Position numbers and translations under genes: made by a program
The notes under the pieces: model-generated
Databases searched by the model: none
What the model was told of the DNA's origin: nothing
What the model saw: the letters and a program-made list of their open reading frames with translations, nothing else
Virus record (IMG/VR): IMGVR_UViG_3300030104_001234
Span: 1 to 35,036 of that record
Strand: one strand, 5' to 3'
Source: a virus
DNA: 35,036 nucleotides
Shown here: positions 7,716 through 25,801 of the stretch, piece after piece
Numbering within the stretch: position 1 is the stretch's first letter
Layout: every line of letters begins with the position of its first letter

Positions 7716-7743
7716 AAGCCCCGCTGATCTCTCAGCGGGGCTT
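7716..7743. terminator. two-way terminator between converging gene blocks
   Basis: A perfect 12-bp stem (7716-7727 with 7732-7743) has a TCTC loop. On the minus strand it is followed by the T run complementary to AAAAAG at 7710-7715. On the plus strand it is followed by TTTAGTTT. The minus-strand Rz1 stop codon begins at the base of the stem. It ends both the plus early block and the minus late block. Confidence 0.88.
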
Positions 7744-8129
7744 TAGTTTGGGGAGGTATTCGATGGAGCTACGTTTCGTTTCTCGTGATAATCCAAAGCA
7801 GCGTTGGCTTGCTTCATCCAGAAGCTGACCTCTTTGTTAAACACCCTCATGCTGACATAGTGGTCGCTCTGCATACAGACCAGCTTACCTTGCGGAATTT
7901 TTTTCTGTACCCAATACGGCAGGGGGCCGACTTCCACCCTTGGGGGGATTACGGGGCTTGGCCTTGGGGGATTTAGGTAAGTGTATTTTACAGTCGGAGG
8001 CGGAGCCTCCACCAGCTCGGCAAATGTCGCGCAACCCCCTAGCCCAGAGATAAGTAGTGGCGCGGCCAGCGCGGACAGGATTTTCTGCCAGCGCCTTTTG
8101 TAATGTGGTCGAGGTCGATCTAATCGCAT
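7743..8129 (-). CDS. Rz1-like outer-membrane spanin lipoprotein
   Basis: The 128-residue protein has a basic N-terminus, a hydrophobic stretch (ILSALAAPLLISG) and the lipobox LGGC with the lipidated cysteine at residue 33, followed by a proline-rich mature segment (NPPRPSPVIPPRVEVGPLP). These are the marks of o-spanins. The start lies inside the i-spanin gene in a different frame, and the gene runs past its end, so this is an overlapping rather than fully nested Rz/Rz1 pair. With the i-spanin it would span the periplasm and fuse the two membranes in the last step of lysis, which indicates a Gram-negative host. The C-terminal extension beyond the proline region is longer than in the lambda Rz1. 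Confidence 0.82.
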   Translation of the reverse strand: MRLDRPRPHYKRRWQKILSALAAPLLISGLGGCATFAELVEAPPPTVKYTYLNPPRPSPVIPPRVEVGPLPYWVQKKIPQGKLVCMQSDHYVSMRVFNKEVSFWMKQANAALDYHEKRNVAPSNTSPN

Positions 8130-8388
8130 TGCTCTGCTTTCTCAACGCCGCCATCTCTCGGTTGCGGTCCTTCAGTTGGTTGTCCATAGCGTGCATCTGT
8201 CGCTGGTGTTCCATCTTCAGATCGCTGATTTGCTTGATGGCCTTTTGTGTTTCCGCCTGCTGCTGAGCGTACTTCGCTTCCAGCTCCGCCACTTCCTGCC
8301 ACGCCGATTTGAGCAGCGCCCCAGAAGCTGTGAGAGCGGCCAACGCTACTACCAGCAATATTCCAAGGATAACTGTTGGCGACGGCAT
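7885..8388 (-). CDS. Rz-like inner-membrane spanin
   Basis: The 167-residue protein has an N-terminal membrane anchor (residues about 5-24, VILGILLVVALAALTASGAL). A long coiled coil (residues about 28-100, rich in A, E, Q and K heptads) follows, then a globular part with two cysteines (DICRAGGGSASDC) and a basic proline-rich end. This is the i-spanin layout. Its partner Rz1 starts at 8129 within this gene. It lies 3 bases downstream of the holin candidate, consistent with a lysis cassette. Confidence 0.85.
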   Translation of the reverse strand: MPSPTVILGILLVVALAALTASGALLKSAWQEVAELEAKYAQQQAETQKAIKQISDLKMEHQRQMHAMDNQLKDRNREMAALRKQSNAIRSTSTTLQKALAENPVRAGRATTYLWARGLRDICRAGGGSASDCKIHLPKSPKAKPRNPPKGGSRPPAVLGTEKNSAR

Positions 8389-9848: not shown

Positions 9849-10277
9849 TCACTTTCCGTTAATCTGAAGCGTTCTCTGCGCGTCCTTCAATTTTTCGACA
9901 GCGCTCCGCACTTCCATCATGTCGGTCTGCAAGCGCGTAATGTTGACGCTATTATTTGACCTGTCTTCGACTTTCGCCGTCAGTTTTTCTAACTGACCGC
10001 TGATATGTTCAATTAGCATAAACGCCTCTTTCACCGCTGGCGATTGTGGGCGTTCGATGCGGAAGGTTGTGTTCTTGTCAATGTCAAGTTTTAAGGATGC
10101 AACGCTAGTTTCCAAATCCTTCTTTACTAACTGCTCAGAAGTCTCCAGCCGATTGAGCCGCTCTTGGATAATGAAGTACGAATAGACGCCCATGCCGACC
10201 AGCGCAATCAGACTGATGACAGTCTTCATAGGCATCTGGACGTTTGTGCTGTCGCTGATCTTTGTTGTCATCGACAC
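9849..10277 (-). CDS. membrane-anchored coiled-coil protein, 142 aa
   Basis: After a polar 16-residue start comes a transmembrane segment (MKTVISLIALVGMGVYSYF) and then coiled coil (IQERLNRLETSEQL onward) interrupted near residue 70-82 by a proline-containing stretch, followed by a second coil. It resembles the 119-residue protein at 9261 in size and order. It overlaps the upstream gene by 10 bases. An internal ATG (MPMKTV) could give a shorter form beginning right at the membrane segment. The function is unknown. Confidence 0.6.
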   Translation of the reverse strand: MSMTTKISDSTNVQMPMKTVISLIALVGMGVYSYFIIQERLNRLETSEQLVKKDLETSVASLKLDIDKNTTFRIERPQSPAVKEAFMLIEHISGQLEKLTAKVEDRSNNSVNITRLQTDMMEVRSAVEKLKDAQRTLQINGK

Positions 10278-10804
10278 ACTGCCTCAACGCAGCGGTTAGC
10301 CCAAATGTAATATCCTACCACCGCCGCAAAAATCGCAATGCCTGCCAGTTGAGCAAAAATTATTGCCCATCTCTTGATTGTCTCTCGACGTGCCTCCGCC
10401 TCTTCTCGCTCCTTCTTGAGGCGCTCCTCCTTCTCCTTCTTCCGCTGATCGCGGGTTTCAAGGATCACGTCCCAAGTTTTCTTCTCGCCGTGCGGCACCG
10501 GCCAGCGGCGATTGATCTCATCAGCAAGGTCTTGGATGTTTCGCTCTAAGCGCTTCTGGGCGTCTATCTCATTAACAATGGTAGAGAGGTCGTCCTCTCC
10601 CCCGCCATCCGATGTCCGCTTCTGCAGGATGCTTTGGTTCTTCGCAGCGACGGCGTCCGTAGGCTTCGATGCAATATTTTTCTCGTGCGCTTCCTTATGG
10701 TGCAACAAGTCGTCAATGGAATGTGCGATTGAGGCAACATCCTTGGCACCCTTTAAGACGACCTTCGCAGCACTTAATGAAGCAGCTATCGTGAGTGGGT
10801 CCAT
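10268..10804 (-). CDS. tail-anchored coiled-coil membrane protein, 178 aa
   Basis: The N-terminus (MDPLTIAASLSAAKVVLKGA) is amphipathic. It is followed by a charged coil (VNEIDAQKRLERNIQDL; KKEKEERLKKEREEAEAR) and one C-terminal hydrophobic segment (WAIIFAQLAGIAIFAAVVGYYIW), then a short tail with two cysteines. The topology is opposite to the two N-anchored coiled-coil proteins next to it. Similar MDP-starting proteins occur near tail and lysis genes of marine podoviruses, by memory. Start at 10804, preceded closely by GAGGT. Confidence 0.6.
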   Translation of the reverse strand: MDPLTIAASLSAAKVVLKGAKDVASIAHSIDDLLHHKEAHEKNIASKPTDAVAAKNQSILQKRTSDGGGEDDLSTIVNEIDAQKRLERNIQDLADEINRRWPVPHGEKKTWDVILETRDQRKKEKEERLKKEREEAEARRETIKRWAIIFAQLAGIAIFAAVVGYYIWANRCVEAVCR

Positions 10805-10807
10805 ACA

Positions 10808-11284
10808 TTACCTCGCTCTTGCCTGTGCTGCGCCGCCGCCAGGAGGACGGATACCCCACGCCCAAACCAACATAGGATCATCAGCGCCGATGCCGAAAGC
10901 GCCCCCCGCACTAGGCCGCATCTTAAATCCATTGGCAGTGACATCTCCAATCGTAATCCCGCTGTAACCTTTTTCTTGATTGTTCCAGTTGTAACGAATG
11001 TCCGCAGGATTGCCGTTTCCGTTCGTGGAGTACGTTGGAAATGTCGGAAAGAAATCGTTGGAATTAGAAGAATCAATGTTGCGCCATGCGATTAGGGACG
11101 CTGCTCCACCAAGATGAATATAAGGACCATCAGTTGTCGAACCGTTATGGGAGTAGCCTGTGAACGCGCTGAACCCTTCGATTTGCTCCCACACAATGAC
11201 CCGATAAGTGCCAGACGGGAAACTAGTGCTTAGTGTTATGTTCGTTCCATCTACCGTTACAAGACATATTCGGATGAGAAACAT
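10808..11284 (-). CDS. out-of-frame C-terminal part of the LamG/SPRY adhesin
   Basis: This frame carries what looks like the missing end of the adhesin to its right. It runs ITLSTSFPSGTYRVIVWEQI, EGFSAFTGYSHNGSTTDGPY, IHLGGAASLIAWRN, and finally DDPMLVWAWGIRPPGG. The strand-rich segments of the type VIVWEQIEGFSAFTGY continue the same repeat style as HGLGSGAKSAVAKRSDSTGDW in the upstream frame. The frame is +1 to the upstream one and the two overlap at 11223-11284. The ATG at 11284 has no good ribosome site, so separate translation is doubtful. The end abuts the next gene by 3 bases, as a real coding end would. It could be a natural truncation, a programmed shift or a sequence error. Confidence 0.75.
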   Translation of the reverse strand: MFLIRICLVTVDGTNITLSTSFPSGTYRVIVWEQIEGFSAFTGYSHNGSTTDGPYIHLGGAASLIAWRNIDSSNSNDFFPTFPTYSTNGNGNPADIRYNWNNQEKGYSGITIGDVTANGFKMRPSAGGAFGIGADDPMLVWAWGIRPPGGGAAQARAR

Positions 11285-13091
11285 ACCAGTCGCCCGTGCT
11301 ATCGGACCTTTTCGCTACAGCTGATTTTGCACCACTCCCTAGGCCATGAGCTTGATTTGTCGCCGAACTGTTATCATGGCTAATCTCTGCCGTGTAACAC
11401 CCGTAAGCTGCACCTACGCGCCACGACCATGCGGAGTAGTTCACGCTTGACGCTAGGGTTAACTCTGAACCTGCGGCGGCGTCTGTGTTGAAGTGCATCG
11501 AATTGCCGCTATCATCAGAAAACCGAACATCGTAATCTTCATCGTCAGCCTCTTTCTTAAAGACGTCGATGTAGCTGCTCCATCCTGAACGTGCGGTGGC
11601 TAGGCTGGCCTCGATGGTATCTCCGTCTTCCAGTGTAATGAACACAAACCCATCATCAGGGTTCTTCACTGTGGGAGCCGTAATATTGGCGGTGTTAAGG
11701 GAGGTATAATTTGCCGGTGCGCTATACGACCAATCTGCGTTGCGGAACCTAGCAGTATGCGTATTTTCAGCATTGTAGCCGTGACAAATTAAGAAGAGAG
11801 GGCCAGCAGTCTTTGATAGCGTGTCATCCCATATGGTGCCGGGGCCGGTTCCTCCGCTAAAGGCCGATCCGTTCCACCATTGACCATCCTTCGAGAGATA
11901 TAAATCTTGGTTGTCAAAATCAACAGCAAACCCCCAGACAGTTCCGGTGGTCACACCAAGTGTACGGCTGGAAGTTGAGCCGTCGAATTTTTCCCAAGTG
12001 TTCCCTGCCGGTTGAATGACACTGGCAACGCCGTTCGTCGCGCCGGGTGCCGCCGTAAGGCTTACTTCTCCTGTACCAACTGATATTGCGTAATTGGCAC
12101 TTGACTCGTCGGCACGAACTTCAAAATAAACTTTTCCACCTGTACTAACGCCTTGCGTTGACCTTATGGCTTGCCAGCCGCTGGAACCGGAAGATGCCCA
12201 AGTGACATTTCCGTTTGAAAGTGTAGTCGTTGCGGCATCCAACGGGTTTAATGTTGCGTAATTTCCAATATTATTATCAGAATCATCAGTCGGCGTGTCG
12301 GTGACTTGATTGGTTTGCACCGCGCCCCCGCCGACGGCCCAATGGTTATCTTTTTCAGAAGTGTCAGCGCCAATTCCGTTTGCATCTTGGCCGCTTCCAT
12401 TTTCCTTAAACTGAAGAAGAAAACCGTTATTTCCATAATCATCTATATTTGTACTAGGGTCTTTTGGCACCCATACACCGTTACTGTCAAATTCTCCAAA
12501 GTCCGTGTGGGCTAGATTATTGCCGTCCACAAAGACCATTTCGGCAATGTAACCATTCCACAGATTATTATTTGATAACGCATATCGACCAACCTCATGG
12601 TCAAAAGCGTTTCCTAAAGAAAATTCAAAGTCTTCATCTGGGTAGGTATGAGTCGATAAGTCGGCGTCTGGTATTTGGACGCCGTTGAGATAGAGCTTAA
12701 TGGTTGAGGCACTTGGTGTAACGCTGTCAGTATTTGCTGATAAGATGAGGTGATACCACGCTGTCGGATCACGCAATAATCGCTCTGAAATTAAACTTAA
12801 TTCGTTTGTGCCGCCGACGTAATTAGAAATGCGAATTGTTCCGTCGGATTGCACCCAGAACATAAACTCGGCATCACTACTAGTATCATCGCAGCTTAAC
12901 AAAGTACCAGTTGCGCCTAACGCGCCTAACTTAAACCAGCACGAAAAAGTAAATTTCATACGGTTAGTTCCGGTGCCGCTGAAGGTTTTATTTAGATAAT
13001 CTGCGCCGCCATCTAGCCAGATCGCGTTTTCGATGGTGTAACCGCTGTCCCCTGCCGGGATCAGTGCGGGAAAGATAATGGACGCGACCAT
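11223..13091 (-). CDS. LamG/SPRY-type tail adhesin, truncated by apparent frameshift
   Basis: The 622-residue frame has a short N-terminal lead. A concanavalin/LamG-like domain covers about residues 25-205 (FTFSCWFKLG, WYHLILSANT, IKLYLNGVQI, GYIAEMVFVDG). A SPRY-like domain covers about residues 245-455 (GGKVYFEVRADES, WGFAVDFDNQDLYLSKDGQW). Beta repeats then run to residue 600. Such proteins decorate the tail fibres of marine phages and bind host surface sugars or proteins. After GDWYVSH the frame ends in a short unrelated tail (CNGRWNEHNTKH). The natural continuation is in the +1 frame. The start overlaps the tail fibre stop (TAATG). Confidence 0.82.
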   Translation of the reverse strand: MVASIIFPALIPAGDSGYTIENAIWLDGGADYLNKTFSGTGTNRMKFTFSCWFKLGALGATGTLLSCDDTSSDAEFMFWVQSDGTIRISNYVGGTNELSLISERLLRDPTAWYHLILSANTDSVTPSASTIKLYLNGVQIPDADLSTHTYPDEDFEFSLGNAFDHEVGRYALSNNNLWNGYIAEMVFVDGNNLAHTDFGEFDSNGVWVPKDPSTNIDDYGNNGFLLQFKENGSGQDANGIGADTSEKDNHWAVGGGAVQTNQVTDTPTDDSDNNIGNYATLNPLDAATTTLSNGNVTWASSGSSGWQAIRSTQGVSTGGKVYFEVRADESSANYAISVGTGEVSLTAAPGATNGVASVIQPAGNTWEKFDGSTSSRTLGVTTGTVWGFAVDFDNQDLYLSKDGQWWNGSAFSGGTGPGTIWDDTLSKTAGPLFLICHGYNAENTHTARFRNADWSYSAPANYTSLNTANITAPTVKNPDDGFVFITLEDGDTIEASLATARSGWSSYIDVFKKEADDEDYDVRFSDDSGNSMHFNTDAAAGSELTLASSVNYSAWSWRVGAAYGCYTAEISHDNSSATNQAHGLGSGAKSAVAKRSDSTGDWYVSHPNMSCNGRWNEHNTKH

Positions 13092-14938
13092 TAGCTGACC
13101 GCCAGCGTGTTCGCTACCACCACGCTTGTTCCGTCAAAGGAATAATAACTTATCAGATAATTCCCCGCCGTTGATACAGTAGCCAAGAAGTTCGCATCGC
13201 ATTTGACTTCGGAGCCTTTTGTGATTGTGTGGCCGCTTCCATTTACCAAGTAAATTAAACCGCCCTGACCCGCAGTTTCATTGGTAAACTCAATTACGTC
13301 AGCGCCAGATGGCGTCCAGTTAAAGTTGTTACCGGCGTTCATATCGAATGACCCGTCATTATCGGTAACAGGAGTTGAGCGTTGTGATCCTGTCCAGCTT
13401 TGGTCTTTAGTAAGGTCAAGCGTAATCGTTGTGCCTGTCTGCGTCAGCCCTGCGCCATAATCGTTGCAAGACATGATGGTCGCCAACCAGTTGTCGGTTT
13501 CCGTGGCAGCAACCTCGTCAGCTATAAAGTGAACGACGTGTCCGACTGCCGTTAGCCCTGTGTAATTCGACGCCGCTCCATTGATGGTGTCTCCGTCTCT
13601 CACAATGGTGATGGCGTTATCGACGTTGGTGACTTCAAAGCCAAACATCTGACCGTCAAGTGCATCACTTGCCCCTGTCCCAATCGTCGGCAAGTTGATC
13701 GTAATAGTGCCGCCAGAGGCATTAAGGACGTAATAAGTACCGACGTTAGCACGTTCTAGGTTGTGCGTTCCTGCGGTTAGCGTTGTTACAGCCGTCCACT
13801 TTTTATTGTAGGCAGTTGCTGCCGCTGCTTCAGTCGCCGCATCAGTGGCATACTTTCTTGCACTGTAAAGCCCCCCTGCGACAGCCGTCCCTTCAGTGAA
13901 AGAACCGCCGCCACCTAACGCCCACTCTTTTGCTGATCCAGCGGCTACCGTACTACCAACGGCATACTCTTTTGCGGAATATTCAGAAGTATCTACAGCA
14001 CCACCTGTAGTGGTTGCCCACTCCTTGGCTGCACCGCGAGAGGCCGTTGTCGTAACATTTGTCCCGCCAACGGCCCAGGCTTTTGCACTGAAGTCTGATC
14101 CTGTAACCGCACCGTCTACCTTAGTTGCGTAGTTGGTTGCTTCGGTTGCCTTAGTAGTTGCCGTGTCCTTATGGTCTTCCGCTTTCGCGGCCCAGTGGAG
14201 AGCGGAGTACCCCGATCCGTCAACGGTGTTGTCTTCAGCTTCCGTTGCCCACTCCTTCGCTGCTCCTTTCCCAGCGGTGTCCGTTACCCCAGTTCCGCCA
14301 ATGGCCCACGCCTTGGAACTGAAATCCGTACCCGTGACAGCGCCGTCTACTTTTGTTGCGTAATTAGTGGCGAGAGTAGCCTGCGTTGTTGCTGTTGCCG
14401 CGCTGGCAGTGGCAGAGGTTGCAGAAGCGGAAGGCTCGTCTACTAACTCAAACCCGTTGTTAGAAGAGTTAATAATGATCGCCTTACTGGCTACGGGAGC
14501 GGGGACAGAAGTGTTAAAGCTGGAGAGGTCAGCACTAACAGCAAATTTTAGACTGCGATCAATCTCGCCTTGCTGGTCTTGGTCGATCTGGGTGAGCTTG
14601 TCGTAACCTGTCTCTAAAGTTTCAGGCTGAACGCCGCCTCGGTTCTGTAAATCCGTAGTCTGTGTCATCGGAACAGAGCGGGTAATCGTAACCGTTGTTC
14701 CGCTGGGAGCGTGCGTACTGGCGGAGGTAAACACAATGTTACCACCGCTTGCCGTTCCCACGCCGGTCACCGAATAATGTGTGGTCAGCGTCTTAACAAC
14801 TTCCACGCCAGTAGAGGTTGTCTTCACGGTGACAACAAGGTGAGCCTGATCCAGCACGAGGAAGTCATAAGCGAAGGTTGTAGTGCTTCCGTTTCCGTCG
14901 TAGGGGCCAGTGCGTGCGTCTGTAGAAGCCACAGTCAT
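13091..14938 (-). CDS. tail fibre protein with T7 gp17-like N-terminus
   Basis: The 615-residue protein attaches to the tail by its first 150 residues, which follow the T7 fibre N-terminal pattern (YDGNGSTTTFAYDF, then TQTTDLQNRGGVQPETLETG, then DKLTQIDQDQQGEIDRSLK). A thin alanine/threonine-rich shaft follows (about 165-380) with two long repeats at residues 192-231 and 269-308 (NYATKVDGAVTG..., GAAKEWAT). A beta-rich head then closes it (TITINLPTIG, ITIVRDGDTING). It would form the trimeric fibre that the LamG/SPRY adhesin downstream may extend. A strong GGAAGGAAGGAG site precedes the ATG at 14938. Confidence 0.88.
   Translation of the reverse strand: MTVASTDARTGPYDGNGSTTTFAYDFLVLDQAHLVVTVKTTSTGVEVVKTLTTHYSVTGVGTASGGNIVFTSASTHAPSGTTVTITRSVPMTQTTDLQNRGGVQPETLETGYDKLTQIDQDQQGEIDRSLKFAVSADLSSFNTSVPAPVASKAIIINSSNNGFELVDEPSASATSATASAATATTQATLATNYATKVDGAVTGTDFSSKAWAIGGTGVTDTAGKGAAKEWATEAEDNTVDGSGYSALHWAAKAEDHKDTATTKATEATNYATKVDGAVTGSDFSAKAWAVGGTNVTTTASRGAAKEWATTTGGAVDTSEYSAKEYAVGSTVAAGSAKEWALGGGGSFTEGTAVAGGLYSARKYATDAATEAAAATAYNKKWTAVTTLTAGTHNLERANVGTYYVLNASGGTITINLPTIGTGASDALDGQMFGFEVTNVDNAITIVRDGDTINGAASNYTGLTAVGHVVHFIADEVAATETDNWLATIMSCNDYGAGLTQTGTTITLDLTKDQSWTGSQRSTPVTDNDGSFDMNAGNNFNWTPSGADVIEFTNETAGQGGLIYLVNGSGHTITKGSEVKCDANFLATVSTAGNYLISYYSFDGTSVVVANTLAVS
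14012..14365 (-). repeat. diverged 231-bp-period direct repeat in the fibre shaft
   Basis: Two segments of about 123 bp (14243-14365 and 14012-14134) encode near-identical 41-residue blocks one 77-residue period apart. The DNA differs mainly at third codon positions, so the duplication is old and kept at protein level. It is not an adenine-directed diversification pattern. Confidence 0.75.
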
Positions 14939-14990: not shown

Positions 14991-17900
14991 CTAGTCCCTC
15001 TTCGCTGCTATGTCGGCGTCGTACCCACTAAGAAGGTCATGCCACTCCCACCCCGGTTGCTCTTCGTAAAGCGCTTCCAGCCCGTCTATGAAACGGTTAA
15101 CTTGAATAGCAGGAACCTTCCCTGTAGCCACCGCACCAACAATAACAGCAGGCTTAACAACTTCTACCCAAGACGTTTCGTCACCGTCTTCTAGTTTGCG
15201 AGCAGAGTTTTTCAAAAGTTTTTCTATAGCCTCACCAAACATCCCTGCAGGGCTGCCGCCATAACCATAGTCACTAACCACCCCCACAGCCACGTCTCTT
15301 ACAAGAGGAATACCAGAGAGTAACCCGGTTGCTGTTCTTGTTGCTAAAAACTCGCCTAGACTTTCGTCCTCTTCATCTTCAGGTTCCCACTCAGGAAGTT
15401 TCCCTTTAATAAAAGCGGACGCTGCCTCTTGTAAGGTTACAAGGATAAATATCCGTGTGGCTGCCTTCATGCTTGCGCCGACAGGGTTTCTAACTACCCC
15501 CTCCCCAAACTCTTTTCCTACACTACGCAAAATGCCGTACAAAGCAGAAAAGAAAGAGTAGAACATGGTAGCAGCTTTGGTTATTCCTCGGCTTCTCTGA
15601 ATAGCTGCAAGGTCTTTAGCCCCTCCCCCAGACTGGCTCATGCGGACTACCCTATCTGCATAGGCAACGGCGTTTGCGCCGTCTATATCTCCGGGGTCTT
15701 GCTGTAAAGCGTAATTATAAGCTGCGGTCCATACAGGTATATCCACTGAATATAACTGCATGGCAGCAATAGAGCGCATGGAAAACTCTAACCCTCTATC
15801 AATTCTCCCGTCCTTACCTTTCAATCTTTTAATGTTTTCGCGCAGATCGCGGTCAGTGTTTTCAATACGAAACCGCATCTCTGGAGACGCTTCAAAAACA
15901 AAGTTTCTATGATCTCCTGAAAAGGTCTTCCTAATACCTTCTGCAAGATACCCGGCCATTCTAGCTGCGTTGACAGGGCCGTATCCGTTATCCGTTAACA
16001 GGCGGTCATACGCAGTAGTAAGTCCAAATGTCTGGGCAACTAGAGTAGTGTAAGAGAAACCTAGCGCAGCTACAGTTGTGTTTCTTATTGCCTTTTCGCC
16101 CAAGGTTTCAATATCAGTTAGCCTTGCCATATCCTGATTATTTGAAGCGATAGACCCAACCCATGCGTCTAGTAGTCTAGCGTATTTGACCCCGGCCTTT
16201 CGCTCTAGCTCCGCCCGAAGGCCGGTATCATTCAGTATCTTCTTTGCATTACGGACGGCGTCGTAATGAGTAATATAATGGATGGTCGTCTCAAGGCCGT
16301 GGGTCAGGCGAGTTATCTGCAAATTAACAGGCGCACTAAAGCCAGTACGCCCTTTTGTCATAGAGCTGTTAACAGAGGCCTGACCTGCCCTGCCCTGCAT
16401 CTCCTCTAACGCTGTTCTTTTTTCACTAGCGGACGACCCTTTTACGCCAGCATGATCGTAGTCATAAACCATAGGGAAGTACCCGCCAGCGTACTCCCCA
16501 TGTTTTGTGCTAACAGTCCTGCGTTCTACACGGTCAGGAGACACCCCAAACTCTGCGCGGTAGATGCGCTCTACTTCGGGCCACAGCTTTTCAGCCTCGT
16601 CCCAGATGGACTGTACTAAATCCCATTCCTCCTTAGAGAGCTGGTCAAGCACCTCCGCTAGCAGCTCTTCGTTTATGTTCCAACCAATGTCGGCGTACCC
16701 CTGTATTGTCTTTTCGAGGTTGCTCTCGTTGCCCGTGTTCAACGCGAGCATAATCAAACTTTCTCGCGTTAACCTTGTTGTTTCCTTGCCCAGCCCTTTC
16801 TTGTCTACCCGCTTCCCCCATCCCTTCCTAGTCTTAGGATCAACTTGGTTGATCCGATCCTGTATCATCTTTGACACGTCCGCCGTGAGCTGGTTCTTCA
16901 GACCGTAGGCATCAGCAAACGGCTGGTATATGGTCTGATGCCATATGCCTAAAGGAGCGCCGTCTAATGCTTCTAAAAGGAATTCGGCTTTTAACAGGGA
17001 AGCGTCTAATCCCGCCGCTCCAGAAGAGATGCGGGAAAAAACATCTTCCCCTCCTAAAGCGCGGTCTTTAAGGCGGGTAGCAATGGCGTCTTTTCTTCCT
17101 CCAAGCGCCGCCTTCATTTCTCCTATGACTTTATTCCGATCTCTAGTCTCTTGGCCCACTTTAAGTTTTTTAGCAAGGCGGCCTTGCTTCTCTAGGGTTT
17201 TTACACTGTCGTACAGCTCTATAAATTCGCCATACGTCATATCATTCAAATTTTCCTTAGTGTCTTTAACTGTCAGCCATTGCGGAAGCTGTAAGATCGC
17301 GCCGTCGTTTTCCTCCGCCTCTTGGATAAATTGGTTTATTGCCTGCAGCTCTACTAAAGCTCGGCGGCGGTCAGAAACCTCTGCGCTAAAATCAACAATC
17401 TCAAGATGGGCCTTTATGGCATCGACGTATCTCGCATCTATGTTAGGAAATTTCTTTTTAGGGTTTTGGTAAACCTTCATGCTTCTGCGCTGAGTATTTA
17501 ACTTCTTCTCTGCTCGCAGAGCCTCCAAAGCAAGGTAGTGGTTAACAAGGCGTTGAAACTGATGCTGATAAGCAGCTACGCGATCTCCCTTTTTTACCGC
17601 CGCAGCGGCTTCTTTAGCGTGCCGCTTTTCTGCTGCCAAAAATTTATAAGGACGAACCTCGGACACTTTCATTCGGTTCAGCTTGCCTTTTGCGTATGCG
17701 CGAATGAATTTAATTTTAAAAGCGGGTTGCGTAGTCCTTAAAGCGGTTAACTCAGCAGCAAGCACTTTAGCGACGTGGTCCCCATGCACACTTGCAGTAG
17801 CCTCCTCCTGTCCCTGCACATCCATAGAGCCGTGCAGCTCCTGCATTTTTCTATCTAAGGCCTGGTTAACGGCAACATCAAATTTCGGCAGGTCTTTTAG

Positions 17901-20900
17901 CGCTTGTAACATTTCATGCACGTCTTCAAACCCAAACATACGAGCAGCAGTGCCGGGGTCTACGAGGTTTTTGCCTTTAGCATAGACTGCCTTGTTTCCA
18001 ATTCTAGGAAGGTCTGACAAGGACATTCCGTTTTCAGCTAGGTACGTTTCTAAAAGGGCGCGGTCTATCGGGCCTAGCCTTTCATGCGCTTCTGGCTGAG
18101 AACCGTCCGCATACCCCCCTGTAATAAGAGTGTGGAGCAAACGGTAAGCAGGCTGCATTTTTATCTCGTCAGTAACCTCGTCTTTGTATGTATCGCGTTC
18201 TTCCTGCCACCACTTCCTGCGGCTGTCTTGCAACTCAGAGATATGCTTTGCTCTTTGGTTAGCCTGTGATTGATTTTTTGCTCTCTGCATTTTTTGCTGA
18301 TAAGCGTTGAACTGCTCATCTGTCATACCTGCTCGGTCTGCAGTGTCAAAGATACTAGCAAGATCATATTGGCCTTGAGCAACAGCAATTTCTTCATCGG
18401 CAGCAAGCATACGATCAAGGACAGCGGTTACCTCGTCACTCATTTGAATGTCTGTGCCTATAAGGCGTCGGTACACCGATTGTATCCATGCAGCAAAACT
18501 GGCAAAGGCGTCTGCTAGAGCTAAGCTAGGGGCGTTGCCTGTAGCAAAGTAGCTTTCTACTCCTCTGGCAAAGTTTTCATGCATGGCAATACTTAGCCAA
18601 CTAAACTCATTAGAGGGATCGTTTACGCCTTTCCCTCTCAAGTCCCCTTGTCGTATGTACGCCTTTACTTGAGCGTCCGTCATCTTTTGAAGGGCGGCTA
18701 CAGAGGCTTTATCCTTTTTCTTCTTCGCACGGCGAATTGCCTCTTCCTTAATCTCCAAGGAACGGCTGCCCCACCATTTTGTAACGATGTCAAAGTCCCG
18801 CTGAAACTGACCACCTACAGCAGCAGCATCCGACTTGAGCTGCTCCAACCAGAAATGTCCACTTTCATGCAGGAAAGTAGACTGGTCAGCCTTTTCAAAT
18901 ATTTGGATAAGGTTTACAGGATTGTCGTCCTGATCTGTAATCAGGTCGCTGGGGGTGAAACCTCCTCTTGGGTCGGCTTGCGCTCCTGTCTGCTCAAGCG
19001 CTGCTTCTCTAGGGCGGCCTGTGCCAGTTTGCCCAACCCCTGTAACACCTTCGGGTTCGACAGGTCTAGCATCTTGTCCAGAGACGGCTCCTGCTCCATC
19101 TCTTCCTTCTGTAAGTCCTTCAATTCCTTCGACGGCATACCCCTGCTCCCTCAAGATATTTGCAAACGTAGTGTCATAGCTTGCATTAAGTGGGTTAGGC
19201 GGAACTATCGCAACTCCGTCTTCGTCGGTAGCCAGCTCGGTAGTTAACGCACCCCACAATTCTTTTTCAGGATACCATAGCACAGCTTGCAAGTCAGCGA
19301 CAGTTAATTCTATCCCTCTCTGCTGTAGTACTTCTTTTGCTTTTGCTCCAGCAGCTTCAATTTGTTTGCGTTGCGTACCGTTTGCAACCTGATCTAACGG
19401 CTTAGACAAGTTAGTGATAATCGTCTTAGCTGCTCTGGCCCACGTCGGTTGTAATTCTTTAGGTACTGGTCCCGATTCTCGTAAGCGGTTATATTCTACG
19501 TTCCAAGCGCTCAGGAGACGCTTAGCGTAACCAAGAAGCTCGGCATCATTGTTTGCGTAAGCGTCGGACCACGGCTCAGGTACTTGTAGCCCTTCTAGAT
19601 CGGGTACAACGTCTTCCATTATTTTTAAACGGGCTTTAAGGCGTTTTTTCTCCGCATTAAAATCTTTCTTACGAGAAAACTTAACAGGGTTCAGGCTATC
19701 GATCTGTTCCTGCATCCCAGCCATTATTTGCTTCAGAGCTGCAACATGGTCTTGATCACCCCCTCGTTTTGATAGCGAGCGAGCCGCTGCTCTTCTGAGA
19801 CGGTCCCGCTGAGCAGGCAAGGCTTCAGGGTTACCAATGCTCTTCCCTGTCATCCGCCCCCAAGTACGGCGCAGCCACAGATCAATAGTTAAGGGGTCAA
19901 AGTTTCCGTTAAGGTTCTGCCAAAAACCATTGCCGATTTTAGGACCAAGGGTTGAAGACCCGTAGACTACAGCGTCTTTGGCGGTCTGACCCGGAGGGCT
20001 GTAGGGTATCCCTGCAGCCTTCATCTCTACTTCCCATTCACGCACTGTCTTACTTTCACGAAACAGAGCGTCTAAGGCGGTTAGCTTCTCAGCAAAGCTG
20101 TCTCCCGGCATAGCGTTAACCATCGGGAGAAACTTATCAAAGTTATCCCCCATAGCTTCTTGTTTGTCCCCCGTACCCCACTCTCGCAGCATAGGTATTT
20201 GCCCGTGGTTGTGGCCTTTCTTAACCATCTCAACCATCTGACCAAAGGCTTCGTCTGTTGCCTTACTATTAGCGGCGACATCAAGGTTCTGAGAAGTAAC
20301 CGCCATAATGTACGTCAGCACAAATCGCGCATTTGAAGCAGTTCCAAAACCGCCTTCGGCAGCAGCAGCGTCGTCGGTTATCATGGGGTACTTAAAAGCT
20401 AGAACATCAAGCGCACGCAGTATAGCGGATGAATACCAGTCACTAGCGTTACCAGTATTCTCCATAGCAAGCTGCGCTTCCGCTGCCATAACAAGCGCAA
20501 TCTCTTCTATCTGCTGAGACGTTAAAGGCTCTGTAAAATCAGTTATAGGCGTGCCGGGGAACTGCTCTTCCAACCACAGAGCTGCTTCCATATTACTTGG
20601 AAGGCGCTCTACGGGAAGCGCCTCCGGGCGATATATTGGGCTGACCCTTTGAAGGTTGGCAGCGTCTACTCCATATGCAGCAGGATCATCCTTTAAATTT
20701 TGAGCAGCGTCTACAAGAGAGCCGTCTTGGAAAAGAAAAGTTTCAGCGTCCCCATACTGGACATTTTTTGCGAGGACTAACGGACCTACTTGGATAACCT
20801 CTTCCGCACTTACGACAGGGCGCTGGTCAGACCTGTCATAAAAGAAAGAGTGGCGTTCTGGATCGTATCCTACCTGCGTCCACTCAGGATCATTGATAAC

Positions 20901-23648
20901 GTCCTGCGCCCTTGCAGCAAGTGCCTCTACATCTGCACTTTGAAAATCCCCGTCCATCCTCGCAAACGGGGATTTCTTTGTTCTGTCAGGGTCATCAAAA
21001 ACCTGTGCCGCTTTTCTCTGCTCTCCCTCAGTGGGCATAAGATCGACGTTAGTTATCTGAGCAGCGGCCTCATGCACATTACCTACTGGGGTGTTGTGGA
21101 TAGTTGGAACCCATACGCCATGATCCCTATAAGCAGGGATGTCTAAGCGAAGACCTACACGTTGTCCCACGGGAATCTGATCCGCTTTACCGAGCTTCTC
21201 TTTTTTTCTTTTGTCTAAAGCGCCTCGCATTTCTTCTGTCGTTGCAGGCTCAGGAACAGCTTCAAAAGGAAGAACCGTTTTTAACTTATCGACCTCCTTA
21301 GCATACTCTTCCGCCGTTATCTCTCCTGCTCGTCTGCGTCGAGCTGCCTCGTTCAGAGCAGGGGTGCGTTCTGTTACGTCTTTATAATTCAACTTGATGC
21401 GGTCTACCTGCTCAAAGGTGGGGGCTTCTACTCGCGCCTGCTCGCCTTCAATACGGAGGTTGTCCGCTTCAAACAATGCCAGCGCATCAACAGGCTGCCC
21501 TGTTTCTTCTGTTAGCCTGATAGCTCTGGCAGCGTAACGCTGGGCAGTTAGTTGCCCCAACAGATCGGCCCTACGATCATTATGAGTGCCTGTAGCAATA
21601 ATCTGCTCCGCTACAGTGGAGCGAATTTTGTTGGTGTCCTCCACTAGCTTGTTAAGGGTGGCCTTACCTACCCCCGGAGCAATGCGATCTAACGCCCTTG
21701 CTTGAAGCTGTTGCTCTATGTTGTCCGCCTCTTCCGCAATCCCGCTAGTTTCATAGTCGGCGGCTTCTCTTGCTGTCATGCCTTCTATGTCAAAGCGAGT
21801 ATGTTCAAGAAGCTGTTCAAACCCCTGCTTACCAAGTATGTGTCTTATATAAGTTGCCGTGTCGATCTCAACGTCATTTCCTTCAACGGCAGCCTCCTGC
21901 AAAGAAGCGCTTTCTAAACCTAGCGTCTCCGCTAGGCTGCCGTCCTGATCGAACCGCATAACTTCTTCAGCGGGGATGTAGACGGTGTCTATTCCGTCTT
22001 CCTTTAATTTATCGGACATTACATCCGCCGCTGTGGACAATTTTTCAGTAGGGATGCCTTGGAGGTTCCCTTGTAAATCTTGTTGCCCTTTCAACCATGC
22101 TTTTGCCTTTTTTGCGTCGGCGCGTCTCTTGATATCTCCAGCGCCAGCGATCACTCCTTCAACAGCAACGCTTGACGGGTTCGACCCCCCAAGCATCTCC
22201 AGCATAATCTCTGCGCTGTCTAAGCTCTGACCGCTGAGCGTTTGAGCAAGCCACTCTCCCAGACCCTCCGTCCCCAGCTCGCTCATTGTAGCTAAGCCAA
22301 ATTTTGTTAGGGAACTCTTATCTAAACGGCCTATACGCCCTAAGAACGCATATCCTAGGGCTTGCCCTGTGCCTACCCCTAGACCCCGGCCTTTATCAAA
22401 CTTGGCAGCAGCGCTTTTTACAGCAGGGTTGCTAATTAAAGCCCTCACACCTTCCGGTGTAGTGATATCGACGCCCGTTTCTTCTTTAATTGTCTCAATT
22501 TTTTCTGGGCTAAAATTAAAAAACTCGCTCGCCATTCCTCCTGCTGTGCTAACAACGCCGCCTAACCCTACACGGCTAGCTAAAAGCCCAGAAGCTACAA
22601 CTGGCCCCTGCTGTATCATCTGCCCCGTAGCAAAAGAGGTAACGTCATCAGGCCGAGTAGCAAGAACATCCAGAAAGCCAAGTATCTTGTCTGGCAAAGA
22701 AGCGTCTTTAAGAGCAACAATTTCGTCTATGACTGCCTTCTCACCCTCGCTACGAGGAAGCCCTGAAAAGGTTTCAACAAGGTCTATTATTTTGAAAAGG
22801 TCTTGTTCCGCTTCTTGCCGCAACCTCTCCGCATCTTCTTCACTGGTAAACAGACGAGCGCCTACTTTTGCCAGCCCTTCAAAACTTCCGCTAATAAGCT
22901 CGCTGGGAGTGCGTAGGATGTTACGGGCTAAAGGGGGCATCCAAGATAACAAAGGGTCGGTTTCTTCGTCCTCGTAGAACCCCTCAAAGAAAAGGTCGGA
23001 AACAGGTCTGCCAGCAGTGTCTGCTCTTGCCAAGGCAGATTTAGCTAAAAAAGAATAATAATTTATCTTTGAACGAAACCGCATAAGGTTGGCGTTTATC
23101 TCTAACCAAGGAGCTGGTTCAGCCTCTAACATTGCTCCCCGCATAGCCTCTGTTGCTTTTTCAGAAGCATACATAAGAGGGATTTCATTTCGTAAGATGG
23201 CTGCTACTTCTCTATTGACTGCCATCTTCTCCCTAGTGGCCGTGGTCTTTGCCAAGATAGCCCGGTGATCTTGCCAGCCTGCCATTTGGACAATCTTGTT
23301 AGGGGATGCTTTTTGAATAAGCCCTAGGGGCATGTTCGTAGCCTCGGCCAGCGCTTTCTGTTTAGCCAGCGCGCCCCCATCAATGTCAAAAGCGGAATTG
23401 TAATTTCTCATAGCCTCAACTGTGAGAGGGTGCGCTCTTCGCTTTTGACGAGCGGCTTCTGTACCCGGAAGGGCGGAGCCAAACACAGAAAACTGAGGCT
23501 GCCGGTCAGCGTTAAGAAGGTTGTTTACAGGCGCGGCGTCTGCAGTGGCGTCCATAAAAGGGGACGTGTTCGATTCTTGTAAAGACGCTCCCAAAATACC
23601 TTGGGAAATTGTAATTGAAGTCTTTGGGCTGATAGGCTCCCTAGCCAT
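14991..23648 (-). CDS. giant internal virion (ejection) polyvalent protein, 2885 aa
   Basis: This fills the place of T7 gp16 but is over twice its size. Many segments are typical of phage polyvalent proteins. There is a long helical N-terminal part with hydrophobic helices (EGLGEWLAQTLSGQSLDSAE). A YDPERHSFFYDR block lies near residue 926. A WQNLNGNFDPLTIDLWLRR block lies near residue 1241. A zinc-protease-like FLHESGHFWLE (HESGH at bases 18855-18869) is near residue 1594. The C-terminal region from about residue 2470 (ADRVVRMSQSGGGAKDLAAI) resembles the large polyvalent protein domain LPD38. I see no transglycosylase motif. It is probably ejected into the host, forming or loading the DNA conduit and delivering a protease. 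ATG 23648 comes 2 bases after the upstream stop; ATG 23672 overlaps that gene and has no ribosome site. Confidence 0.82.
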   Translation of the reverse strand: MAREPISPKTSITISQGILGASLQESNTSPFMDATADAAPVNNLLNADRQPQFSVFGSALPGTEAARQKRRAHPLTVEAMRNYNSAFDIDGGALAKQKALAEATNMPLGLIQKASPNKIVQMAGWQDHRAILAKTTATREKMAVNREVAAILRNEIPLMYASEKATEAMRGAMLEAEPAPWLEINANLMRFRSKINYYSFLAKSALARADTAGRPVSDLFFEGFYEDEETDPLLSWMPPLARNILRTPSELISGSFEGLAKVGARLFTSEEDAERLRQEAEQDLFKIIDLVETFSGLPRSEGEKAVIDEIVALKDASLPDKILGFLDVLATRPDDVTSFATGQMIQQGPVVASGLLASRVGLGGVVSTAGGMASEFFNFSPEKIETIKEETGVDITTPEGVRALISNPAVKSAAAKFDKGRGLGVGTGQALGYAFLGRIGRLDKSSLTKFGLATMSELGTEGLGEWLAQTLSGQSLDSAEIMLEMLGGSNPSSVAVEGVIAGAGDIKRRADAKKAKAWLKGQQDLQGNLQGIPTEKLSTAADVMSDKLKEDGIDTVYIPAEEVMRFDQDGSLAETLGLESASLQEAAVEGNDVEIDTATYIRHILGKQGFEQLLEHTRFDIEGMTAREAADYETSGIAEEADNIEQQLQARALDRIAPGVGKATLNKLVEDTNKIRSTVAEQIIATGTHNDRRADLLGQLTAQRYAARAIRLTEETGQPVDALALFEADNLRIEGEQARVEAPTFEQVDRIKLNYKDVTERTPALNEAARRRRAGEITAEEYAKEVDKLKTVLPFEAVPEPATTEEMRGALDKRKKEKLGKADQIPVGQRVGLRLDIPAYRDHGVWVPTIHNTPVGNVHEAAAQITNVDLMPTEGEQRKAAQVFDDPDRTKKSPFARMDGDFQSADVEALAARAQDVINDPEWTQVGYDPERHSFFYDRSDQRPVVSAEEVIQVGPLVLAKNVQYGDAETFLFQDGSLVDAAQNLKDDPAAYGVDAANLQRVSPIYRPEALPVERLPSNMEAALWLEEQFPGTPITDFTEPLTSQQIEEIALVMAAEAQLAMENTGNASDWYSSAILRALDVLAFKYPMITDDAAAAEGGFGTASNARFVLTYIMAVTSQNLDVAANSKATDEAFGQMVEMVKKGHNHGQIPMLREWGTGDKQEAMGDNFDKFLPMVNAMPGDSFAEKLTALDALFRESKTVREWEVEMKAAGIPYSPPGQTAKDAVVYGSSTLGPKIGNGFWQNLNGNFDPLTIDLWLRRTWGRMTGKSIGNPEALPAQRDRLRRAAARSLSKRGGDQDHVAALKQIMAGMQEQIDSLNPVKFSRKKDFNAEKKRLKARLKIMEDVVPDLEGLQVPEPWSDAYANNDAELLGYAKRLLSAWNVEYNRLRESGPVPKELQPTWARAAKTIITNLSKPLDQVANGTQRKQIEAAGAKAKEVLQQRGIELTVADLQAVLWYPEKELWGALTTELATDEDGVAIVPPNPLNASYDTTFANILREQGYAVEGIEGLTEGRDGAGAVSGQDARPVEPEGVTGVGQTGTGRPREAALEQTGAQADPRGGFTPSDLITDQDDNPVNLIQIFEKADQSTFLHESGHFWLEQLKSDAAAVGGQFQRDFDIVTKWWGSRSLEIKEEAIRRAKKKKDKASVAALQKMTDAQVKAYIRQGDLRGKGVNDPSNEFSWLSIAMHENFARGVESYFATGNAPSLALADAFASFAAWIQSVYRRLIGTDIQMSDEVTAVLDRMLAADEEIAVAQGQYDLASIFDTADRAGMTDEQFNAYQQKMQRAKNQSQANQRAKHISELQDSRRKWWQEERDTYKDEVTDEIKMQPAYRLLHTLITGGYADGSQPEAHERLGPIDRALLETYLAENGMSLSDLPRIGNKAVYAKGKNLVDPGTAARMFGFEDVHEMLQALKDLPKFDVAVNQALDRKMQELHGSMDVQGQEEATASVHGDHVAKVLAAELTALRTTQPAFKIKFIRAYAKGKLNRMKVSEVRPYKFLAAEKRHAKEAAAAVKKGDRVAAYQHQFQRLVNHYLALEALRAEKKLNTQRRSMKVYQNPKKKFPNIDARYVDAIKAHLEIVDFSAEVSDRRRALVELQAINQFIQEAEENDGAILQLPQWLTVKDTKENLNDMTYGEFIELYDSVKTLEKQGRLAKKLKVGQETRDRNKVIGEMKAALGGRKDAIATRLKDRALGGEDVFSRISSGAAGLDASLLKAEFLLEALDGAPLGIWHQTIYQPFADAYGLKNQLTADVSKMIQDRINQVDPKTRKGWGKRVDKKGLGKETTRLTRESLIMLALNTGNESNLEKTIQGYADIGWNINEELLAEVLDQLSKEEWDLVQSIWDEAEKLWPEVERIYRAEFGVSPDRVERRTVSTKHGEYAGGYFPMVYDYDHAGVKGSSASEKRTALEEMQGRAGQASVNSSMTKGRTGFSAPVNLQITRLTHGLETTIHYITHYDAVRNAKKILNDTGLRAELERKAGVKYARLLDAWVGSIASNNQDMARLTDIETLGEKAIRNTTVAALGFSYTTLVAQTFGLTTAYDRLLTDNGYGPVNAARMAGYLAEGIRKTFSGDHRNFVFEASPEMRFRIENTDRDLRENIKRLKGKDGRIDRGLEFSMRSIAAMQLYSVDIPVWTAAYNYALQQDPGDIDGANAVAYADRVVRMSQSGGGAKDLAAIQRSRGITKAATMFYSFFSALYGILRSVGKEFGEGVVRNPVGASMKAATRIFILVTLQEAASAFIKGKLPEWEPEDEEDESLGEFLATRTATGLLSGIPLVRDVAVGVVSDYGYGGSPAGMFGEAIEKLLKNSARKLEDGDETSWVEVVKPAVIVGAVATGKVPAIQVNRFIDGLEALYEEQPGWEWHDLLSGYDADIAAKRD

Positions 23649-23650
23649 AT

Positions 23651-25801
23651 TTAGGGTGTCCCCTTCAACCATTTCTCAAAGTCAGATTTAACTTGAGCAA
23701 CGCCTCTAGCGGTTCCTGCAAGAGCGGTTAGGCTCATAATCTCTTGTGCAAAACTTGCCTTTGTTAACGGCTTGTTTGCCGCTGCAAGCCTGCTCTCTAT
23801 AAACTCGTAAGGGTAACCACTATTAGTTGCCATGTCGTCCATGTCATCTAAAGCATCAGCAGCAGCCTTCAGATTACGGAGGTCCGTAAGCGGAGGCTGT
23901 TGTTTATAATCGGGAGGCTTAGGAGATGGTACTGTAGCGCGGTTTTTATTTATAGCATCTGCGACTGCTTTAAGAGTTGGCCCCTCCTTAGTCCAAAAAG
24001 CAGCCTTATCTTTCATAACTGCATCTACTTCTGCAGGAGCAGCGCCTAGAGCAGTTGCGATTACTCTTCTATTCACCTTGCTGTCTTCAAGAGGAATAGT
24101 GTCTTTCACTAACCCGGCTGCAATAGCAACCTGATAGTCGTACTTATACTCACCCATTGGCCCAGTCTCAGCCATCTTTCTTGCGATTAAAAGGTTGGCG
24201 ACAGCCTGCTCTACAACAAGGTTGTCAGCAACTTTTCCTGTGCGCCCAAAAACCTCTTTTCGTACTCTAACAACCTCTTCCGCAATAGCGACAGAATGAT
24301 CTCGGATAACATTTTCTACTTCGGACCCCGGAAAGCCCATACGCTTTAGCGCTGTGGGCAGGCTAAAGTTACTCTTGATGTCCCCTAGCTTCTGTTCCAA
24401 GACAGTTGCTTTAGCCTGAAAAGCGGTAAGCTGTTCTCTGCTGACAAAACGACCAACTCCCCGCGCTTGGCCGTTTGGGCCTGTAGCAGAATTGTTTATT
24501 AGTTGAATGTAGTCTTCAGGGCTTGTTCTAGCCAAACGGGTCATATACCGGTCTACAGGATCGTTCTGTAGGCCTCCGCCGTTCTGTACATGCTCCATCT
24601 CTTGTCGGTTCTGACGGACACTTGCAACCCTGTCGATGCTCTGCAGAAGAAAAGCCTGAGCAACCTTGGGGTTTTGAGTAATAAGGTTGGGAATGTCCCT
24701 CATCGTAATAGGTATACCAGACGCCTCTTTAGCAAACGCAGCTTGTAACTCTGCATCTGTAACAGAAGTAAGCTCAGCAGCCCTAATCTTTAAGTGCCGA
24801 GTTAACTGGGTGGTCAGCCTAGCAATCTTATTTACATCTTTTTTACCTGCAGCTTGCACTGCCTTTAGCAGGTCTGCAGTTTTGTAGTTGGGGGGCAACC
24901 CCGCAAGAACCGTACCGAAATCAGCCTGCCCTCTAATTTCTTCTTGGAAGGGAAGAACCTTAGCTTGCAGCGTTGCGGCAGTCGGGGTGCCTGCAAGGAT
25001 ACCTTTATCTTTTGTATACGTATCAACAAGCTCAGCCGCCTTGGCAAAGTTGCCTCTAGAGATAAGCTCGTCAAAAACTTTTGAGATAACGAGTGTCTGC
25101 TGCTCCTGAACTAGAAGAGCAATTTGCTTAGGGTCAGTAATTCCTCCCTGCTTAGCCATGCCTATGGTACGGTCTGTAACAGAAGTGGTAACTTTTCCTA
25201 GCGCAGTGTCAAGAACCCCTTTGTTAAATCCAGCATCCGTTACCCCTTGAACAGCGCTAAGAGTAGCAGCACCAATAGTTGCCGCGACAGTTTGCTTCTG
25301 GACGAGCTTCCGCGCCTCTAACCCTTGAACAAAAGCGTCTTTAGTAAATTTTGTCTGGCTGGCTGCTATGGCAATGTCCGCAACCTCGCCTCCTGTAGCG
25401 GTGGCAAACTGGTAGTTGGAACGAATGTTTTTTAAGTCTTGCTGATACTGCTGCTCTAAACTGTAGCCGCCTCCCATCTGGCTGGAGTGCGTACCAGAGA
25501 GCATGTCTAAGCGTTCCTGCCCTTCGACACCCTTTATTTGTTTCTGGTAGTCAGCAGTACGCGCATCAATCTCTGCCTGCATTTTGAGACTGGAAACCTT
25601 GTCGTCTGCTTTGTTCATGGCGTCAAGGTCAGCGCCTAAAGTAGAAAGCGCTTGTCCAAGCTGAGCGGGAGTGTTAGCAGCCCCGCCGCCAAACATCTCA
25701 ATAGAGGTACTTAACCGCTGGAAAGGTTGAGGTGTAAAACCTGTCTTGACTGTTCCTACGGCCTGCCCCGGTGCTGCTACTGTTGTAATACGACTAGCCA
25801 T
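23651..25801 (-). CDS. internal virion protein, T7 gp15-like position, 716 aa
   Basis: The soluble, helix-rich protein has many Q, A and K residues and long coiled stretches (DDKVSSLKMQAEIDARTADY; TKFTKDAFVQGLEARKLVQK). It lies between the gp14-like and giant proteins, the order of T7 genes 14-15-16. Its length is near that of T7 gp15. No signal peptide or membrane segment is evident. It is expected to form part of the core inside the head and then the ejected tube across the periplasm. ATG 25801 overlaps the upstream stop (TAATG). The longer reading from 25813 starts with TTG inside the previous gene and is less likely. Confidence 0.78.
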   Translation of the reverse strand: MASRITTVAAPGQAVGTVKTGFTPQPFQRLSTSIEMFGGGAANTPAQLGQALSTLGADLDAMNKADDKVSSLKMQAEIDARTADYQKQIKGVEGQERLDMLSGTHSSQMGGGYSLEQQYQQDLKNIRSNYQFATATGGEVADIAIAASQTKFTKDAFVQGLEARKLVQKQTVAATIGAATLSAVQGVTDAGFNKGVLDTALGKVTTSVTDRTIGMAKQGGITDPKQIALLVQEQQTLVISKVFDELISRGNFAKAAELVDTYTKDKGILAGTPTAATLQAKVLPFQEEIRGQADFGTVLAGLPPNYKTADLLKAVQAAGKKDVNKIARLTTQLTRHLKIRAAELTSVTDAELQAAFAKEASGIPITMRDIPNLITQNPKVAQAFLLQSIDRVASVRQNRQEMEHVQNGGGLQNDPVDRYMTRLARTSPEDYIQLINNSATGPNGQARGVGRFVSREQLTAFQAKATVLEQKLGDIKSNFSLPTALKRMGFPGSEVENVIRDHSVAIAEEVVRVRKEVFGRTGKVADNLVVEQAVANLLIARKMAETGPMGEYKYDYQVAIAAGLVKDTIPLEDSKVNRRVIATALGAAPAEVDAVMKDKAAFWTKEGPTLKAVADAINKNRATVPSPKPPDYKQQPPLTDLRNLKAAADALDDMDDMATNSGYPYEFIESRLAAANKPLTKASFAQEIMSLTALAGTARGVAQVKSDFEKWLKGTP

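Follow-up and report, generated by a model that had tools for sequence, protein, structure and literature searches.

A podovirus tail adhesin gene in a viral contig, almost certainly disrupted by a single out-of-frame 50-bp deletion

A locus on which one phage tail adhesin domain is spread over two frames raises the question of whether it encodes two proteins, one protein made by ribosomal frameshifting, or one gene that has been broken. Such a locus lies in IMG/VR record IMGVR_UViG_3300030104_001234, in a stretch of 35,036 nucleotides that was analysed as a whole and is called the window below. As a preliminary description had reported, a 622-aa frame on the minus strand is followed by a second frame of 158 aa (10808 to 11284, minus strand) that is offset by +1. 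Our comparisons make it almost certain that the two are parts of a single podovirus tail adhesin gene, disrupted in this record by one deletion, which removes 50 bp between two CTT copies and breaks the frame. The features concerned are the following.

11223 to 13091, minus strand: tail adhesin frame, cut short at 622 aa; residues 1–610 are native (LamG domain and first half of a DUF7483-like domain) and are followed by 12 residues read out of frame and a stop
10808 to 11263, minus strand: rest of the adhesin gene, out of frame; the final 151 residues of the DUF7483-like domain, closing with ...AQARAR and a stop
11261 to 11263, minus strand: junction of the 50-bp absence; a single CTT copy, where two flank the 50 bp in the intact relative
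11264 to 11284, minus strand: portion of the 158-aa frame that precedes the junction and contains its ATG (11284)
13091 to 14938, minus strand: upstream neighbour, a 615-aa tail fibre with a T7-type N-terminal region (phrog_1640 tail protein, E 1.1e-32)
10268 to 10804, minus strand: downstream neighbour, a 178-aa protein; gene order kept in relatives L001, L002, L004, and L007

The adhesin start overlaps the stop of the tail fibre gene (TAATG), an arrangement from which the two are probably co-translated. The tail fibre gene itself contains diverged internal repeats (14013 to 14395, ~70% identical, with YATKVDGAVTG-like units). Elsewhere in the window, a 2,893-aa open frame between structural genes (14991 to 23672) matches no Pfam family with confidence (the best is SHOCT, E 0.006) and perhaps encodes a large internal virion protein, and an Rz-like spanin (phrog_812, E 3.7e-7) at 7743 to 8129 overlaps a 167-aa ORF (7885 to 8388) in a different frame.

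One adhesin domain in two frames

Pfam searches place Laminin_G_3 (PF13385, E 1.8e-14) in the 622-aa frame and the end of DUF7483 (PF24299, E 2.5e-9; 37.1 bits against a gathering cut-off of 27) in the 158-aa frame, and both frames match, in order, the phrog_19943 family of structural proteins. Of the LamG/SPRY label first given to the protein, only LamG was recovered; SPRY had no match in the window protein and was seen only in relatives L002 (weakly) and L004. In these same two relatives the PF24299 match crosses the break site with 46–49 bits, whereas the full-length protein of the intact relative L001 gave no PF24299 match at E 0.1, although its C-terminal piece is identical to that of the window. 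In a tblastn search, a 305-residue domain from a relative aligned with residues 1–148 in one window frame and residues 155–305 in the other, the latter identical at 151/151 positions; because the domain aligns in order to both frames, the split is well beyond chance. The protein is thus a tail adhesin that combines LamG with DUF7483, and it belongs to a podovirus with an epsilon15-like portal. The break had been placed after GDWYVSH, at about base 11274, and the pattern is indeed lost nearby, but the native sequence continues slightly further, to HPNMS (base 11262); the roughly 150 residues said to resume in the second frame do so as exactly 151, from base 11263.

A 50-bp segment absent from the window

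The record IMGVR_UViG_3300030372_002142 (G001, with the adhesin locus L001), a viral contig of 43,728 bp, covers all 35,036 bases of the window with 0 substitutions. It is the one other record of the same phage available for comparison, and it differs from the window in a single respect, a 50-bp stretch that is absent from the window at 11261 to 11263 (minus strand). In G001 this stretch is flanked by a 3-bp direct repeat, CTT, one copy of which is left in the window (11263–11261), and the adhesin is a single ORF of 777 aa. The window copy of this protein is native to residue 610 and continues with 12 foreign residues, with residues 627–777 out of frame; it is split in this way because 50 is not a multiple of three, and the truncated form lacks 167 of the 777 residues. 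The split had been described as a +1 frameshift, but what is missing is 50 bp, not one base; a sequencing slip in a homopolymer is likewise rejected. The ends of G001 overlap by 98 bp (compare window 23676 to 23773), after which the last base differs, and the record looks like a circularly closed assembly of ~43.6 kb that includes the window.

The alignment of close relatives, which the preliminary description had recommended, settled the question of a disrupted gene in its favour. In seven further relatives (L002, L004, L007/L019, L015, L016, L017, and L018), whose C-terminal domains are ~82–91% identical, a single frame crosses the site and the SSAN segment is present. A single frame also passes through the site in the more distant L020. 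L007, which comes from a second metagenome, is locally an exact match to the version that contains the 50 bp, and the 30-mer spanning the window junction occurs in no other viral contig searched. An insertion in G001 is excluded solely by the fact that the segment is present in every other relative found; the window is the odd one out, and the event is therefore read as a deletion there. Lost with the deleted stretch is N145, an Asn; across 18 diverse relatives only three positions are invariant, and this is one of them.

Two observations on the relatives stand apart from the break. The C-terminal domain of the adhesin is ~80% identical at the DNA level among the window, L002, and L004 phages while their middle or N-terminal parts differ, a pattern that suggests swapping of tip modules between phages. 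In addition, L019 (G002:21766–22446) has a mosaic C-terminal domain: it matches the window-type phage (G001) perfectly for its first 278 nt, its mismatches to L016 are all confined to the first 200 nt (98.6% identity over 2,500 nt), and its contig, G002, ends inside the DUF7483-like domain. This locus may be recombinant, or it may be the chimeric edge of a contig.

Modelled with 18 sequences, the intact domain gave a beta-rich structure of moderate confidence (mean pLDDT 62.5, pTM 0.69), with the break in its middle. It resembles viral DUF7483-type proteins such as A0A6J5QL19 of an uncultured Caudovirales phage (E 4.3e-9), and a fold search of this moderate model (pLDDT 62.5) against the PDB returned nothing below E 0.001. 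The disrupted gene's product would lose the C-terminal half of the tip domain; it probably cannot fold its tip and would probably be a poor or dead adhesin, and the 158-aa frame would not be made as a separate protein.

Origin of the deletion and other readings of the locus

The deletion could have arisen in the phage or in the data, and from near parity we lean slightly toward the latter. An assembly or library artefact, in which the virions keep the whole gene and the contig lost 50 bp at a tangled graph or through thin coverage, is marginally the better bet. The absence of substitutions over 35 kb indicates that the window and G001 come from the same population and that the deletion is either very recent or artefactual, and a frame-breaking deletion as the sole change from an intact record is suspicious. 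The domain is, moreover, a branching place in another assembly, for G002 ends there, shares 278 nt with G001, and past 200 nt has 0 mismatches to L016. Against such an origin, the sequence common to the two breakpoints is just 3 bp long and no 11-mer of the 50-bp segment recurs elsewhere in the phage genome, so ordinary repeat collapse does not account for the loss.

A real, recent deletion by replication slippage at CTT, leaving a truncated adhesin in a subpopulation as a defective or host-range variant, falls somewhat short of an even chance. As slippage would have it, a direct repeat stands at both ends and one copy is left, but at 3 bp the repeat is short and the sign a weak one: of the 50-bp deletions that could be made in the adhesin gene, only 1.1% have a repeat of at least 3 bp at their ends, a figure that fits slippage while allowing for chance. 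A DNA hairpin linking the breakpoints is only weak. The flanks are otherwise perfect, and tail adhesins are known targets of selection, a general consideration that also favours a real event. Set against this are its occurrence in one contig only, the removal of conserved residues and of half of a beta-rich domain, and the lack of any sign of selection; the escape mutation once proposed has no positive evidence. We regard it as improbable that the deletion is both real and frequent in the population and that selection favours the truncated DUF7483 tip as a host-range or phase-like variant.

The readings that do without a deletion fare far worse. Two separate genes, the second starting from the ATG at 11284, are very improbable: the 158-aa ORF exists, but L004 and L016 lack its ATG, there is no Shine-Dalgarno-like sequence ahead of it, and every intact close relative closes the frame before 35 codons have passed. 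The 11264 to 11284 stretch is a chance frame. A programmed +1 (or −2) ribosomal frameshift giving two fibre-tip forms, which had also been suggested, is least likely of all, for although the second frame carries on the same domain without a stop, it has no conserved start, the relatives each need only a single frame and their other frame closes early, the junction is unique to the window record, and 16 conserved residues, among them the invariant Asn, are absent from the DNA and would not be restored by a fusion.

A single gene with an internal out-of-frame deletion is thus the best annotation of the adhesin in this record, and what looked temptingly like programmed frameshifting in a phage tail tip is no longer a case of it. 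If the deletion is real, a marine adhesin domain that has been little studied would be truncated in nature.

Comparison with known adhesins

Close counterparts of the adhesin come from viral contigs. No relative was found in the bacterial and archaeal genomes searched or, by sequence, among solved structures, and a literature search on DUF7483 found no papers. Among named phages, tblastn with the 158-aa frame gave no match and the 305-aa intact domain gave distant matches only (24–31%). The phage resembles epsilon15-type podoviruses in its podovirus-like structural genes and in its portal, 44% identical to those of Salmonella phage epsilon15 and Limnohabitans phage DC33; the relationship is distant, and a DNA search of phage records with the adhesin gene found no match in named phages. 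The likeness to the marine-phage virion structural proteins of DUF7483 (PF24299)/phrog_19943 comprises the C-terminal domain across the break, the LamG domain upstream, and the C-terminal ARAR, to which the domain runs uninterrupted in L001 and seven other close relatives, whereas the window copy is broken in mid-domain. L001 itself matches the window at every base over the 35,036 window positions and in gene order, and differs in having the 50 bp and one 777-aa frame. By these comparisons, the gene is an ordinary phage adhesin gene whose copy in the window has been broken.
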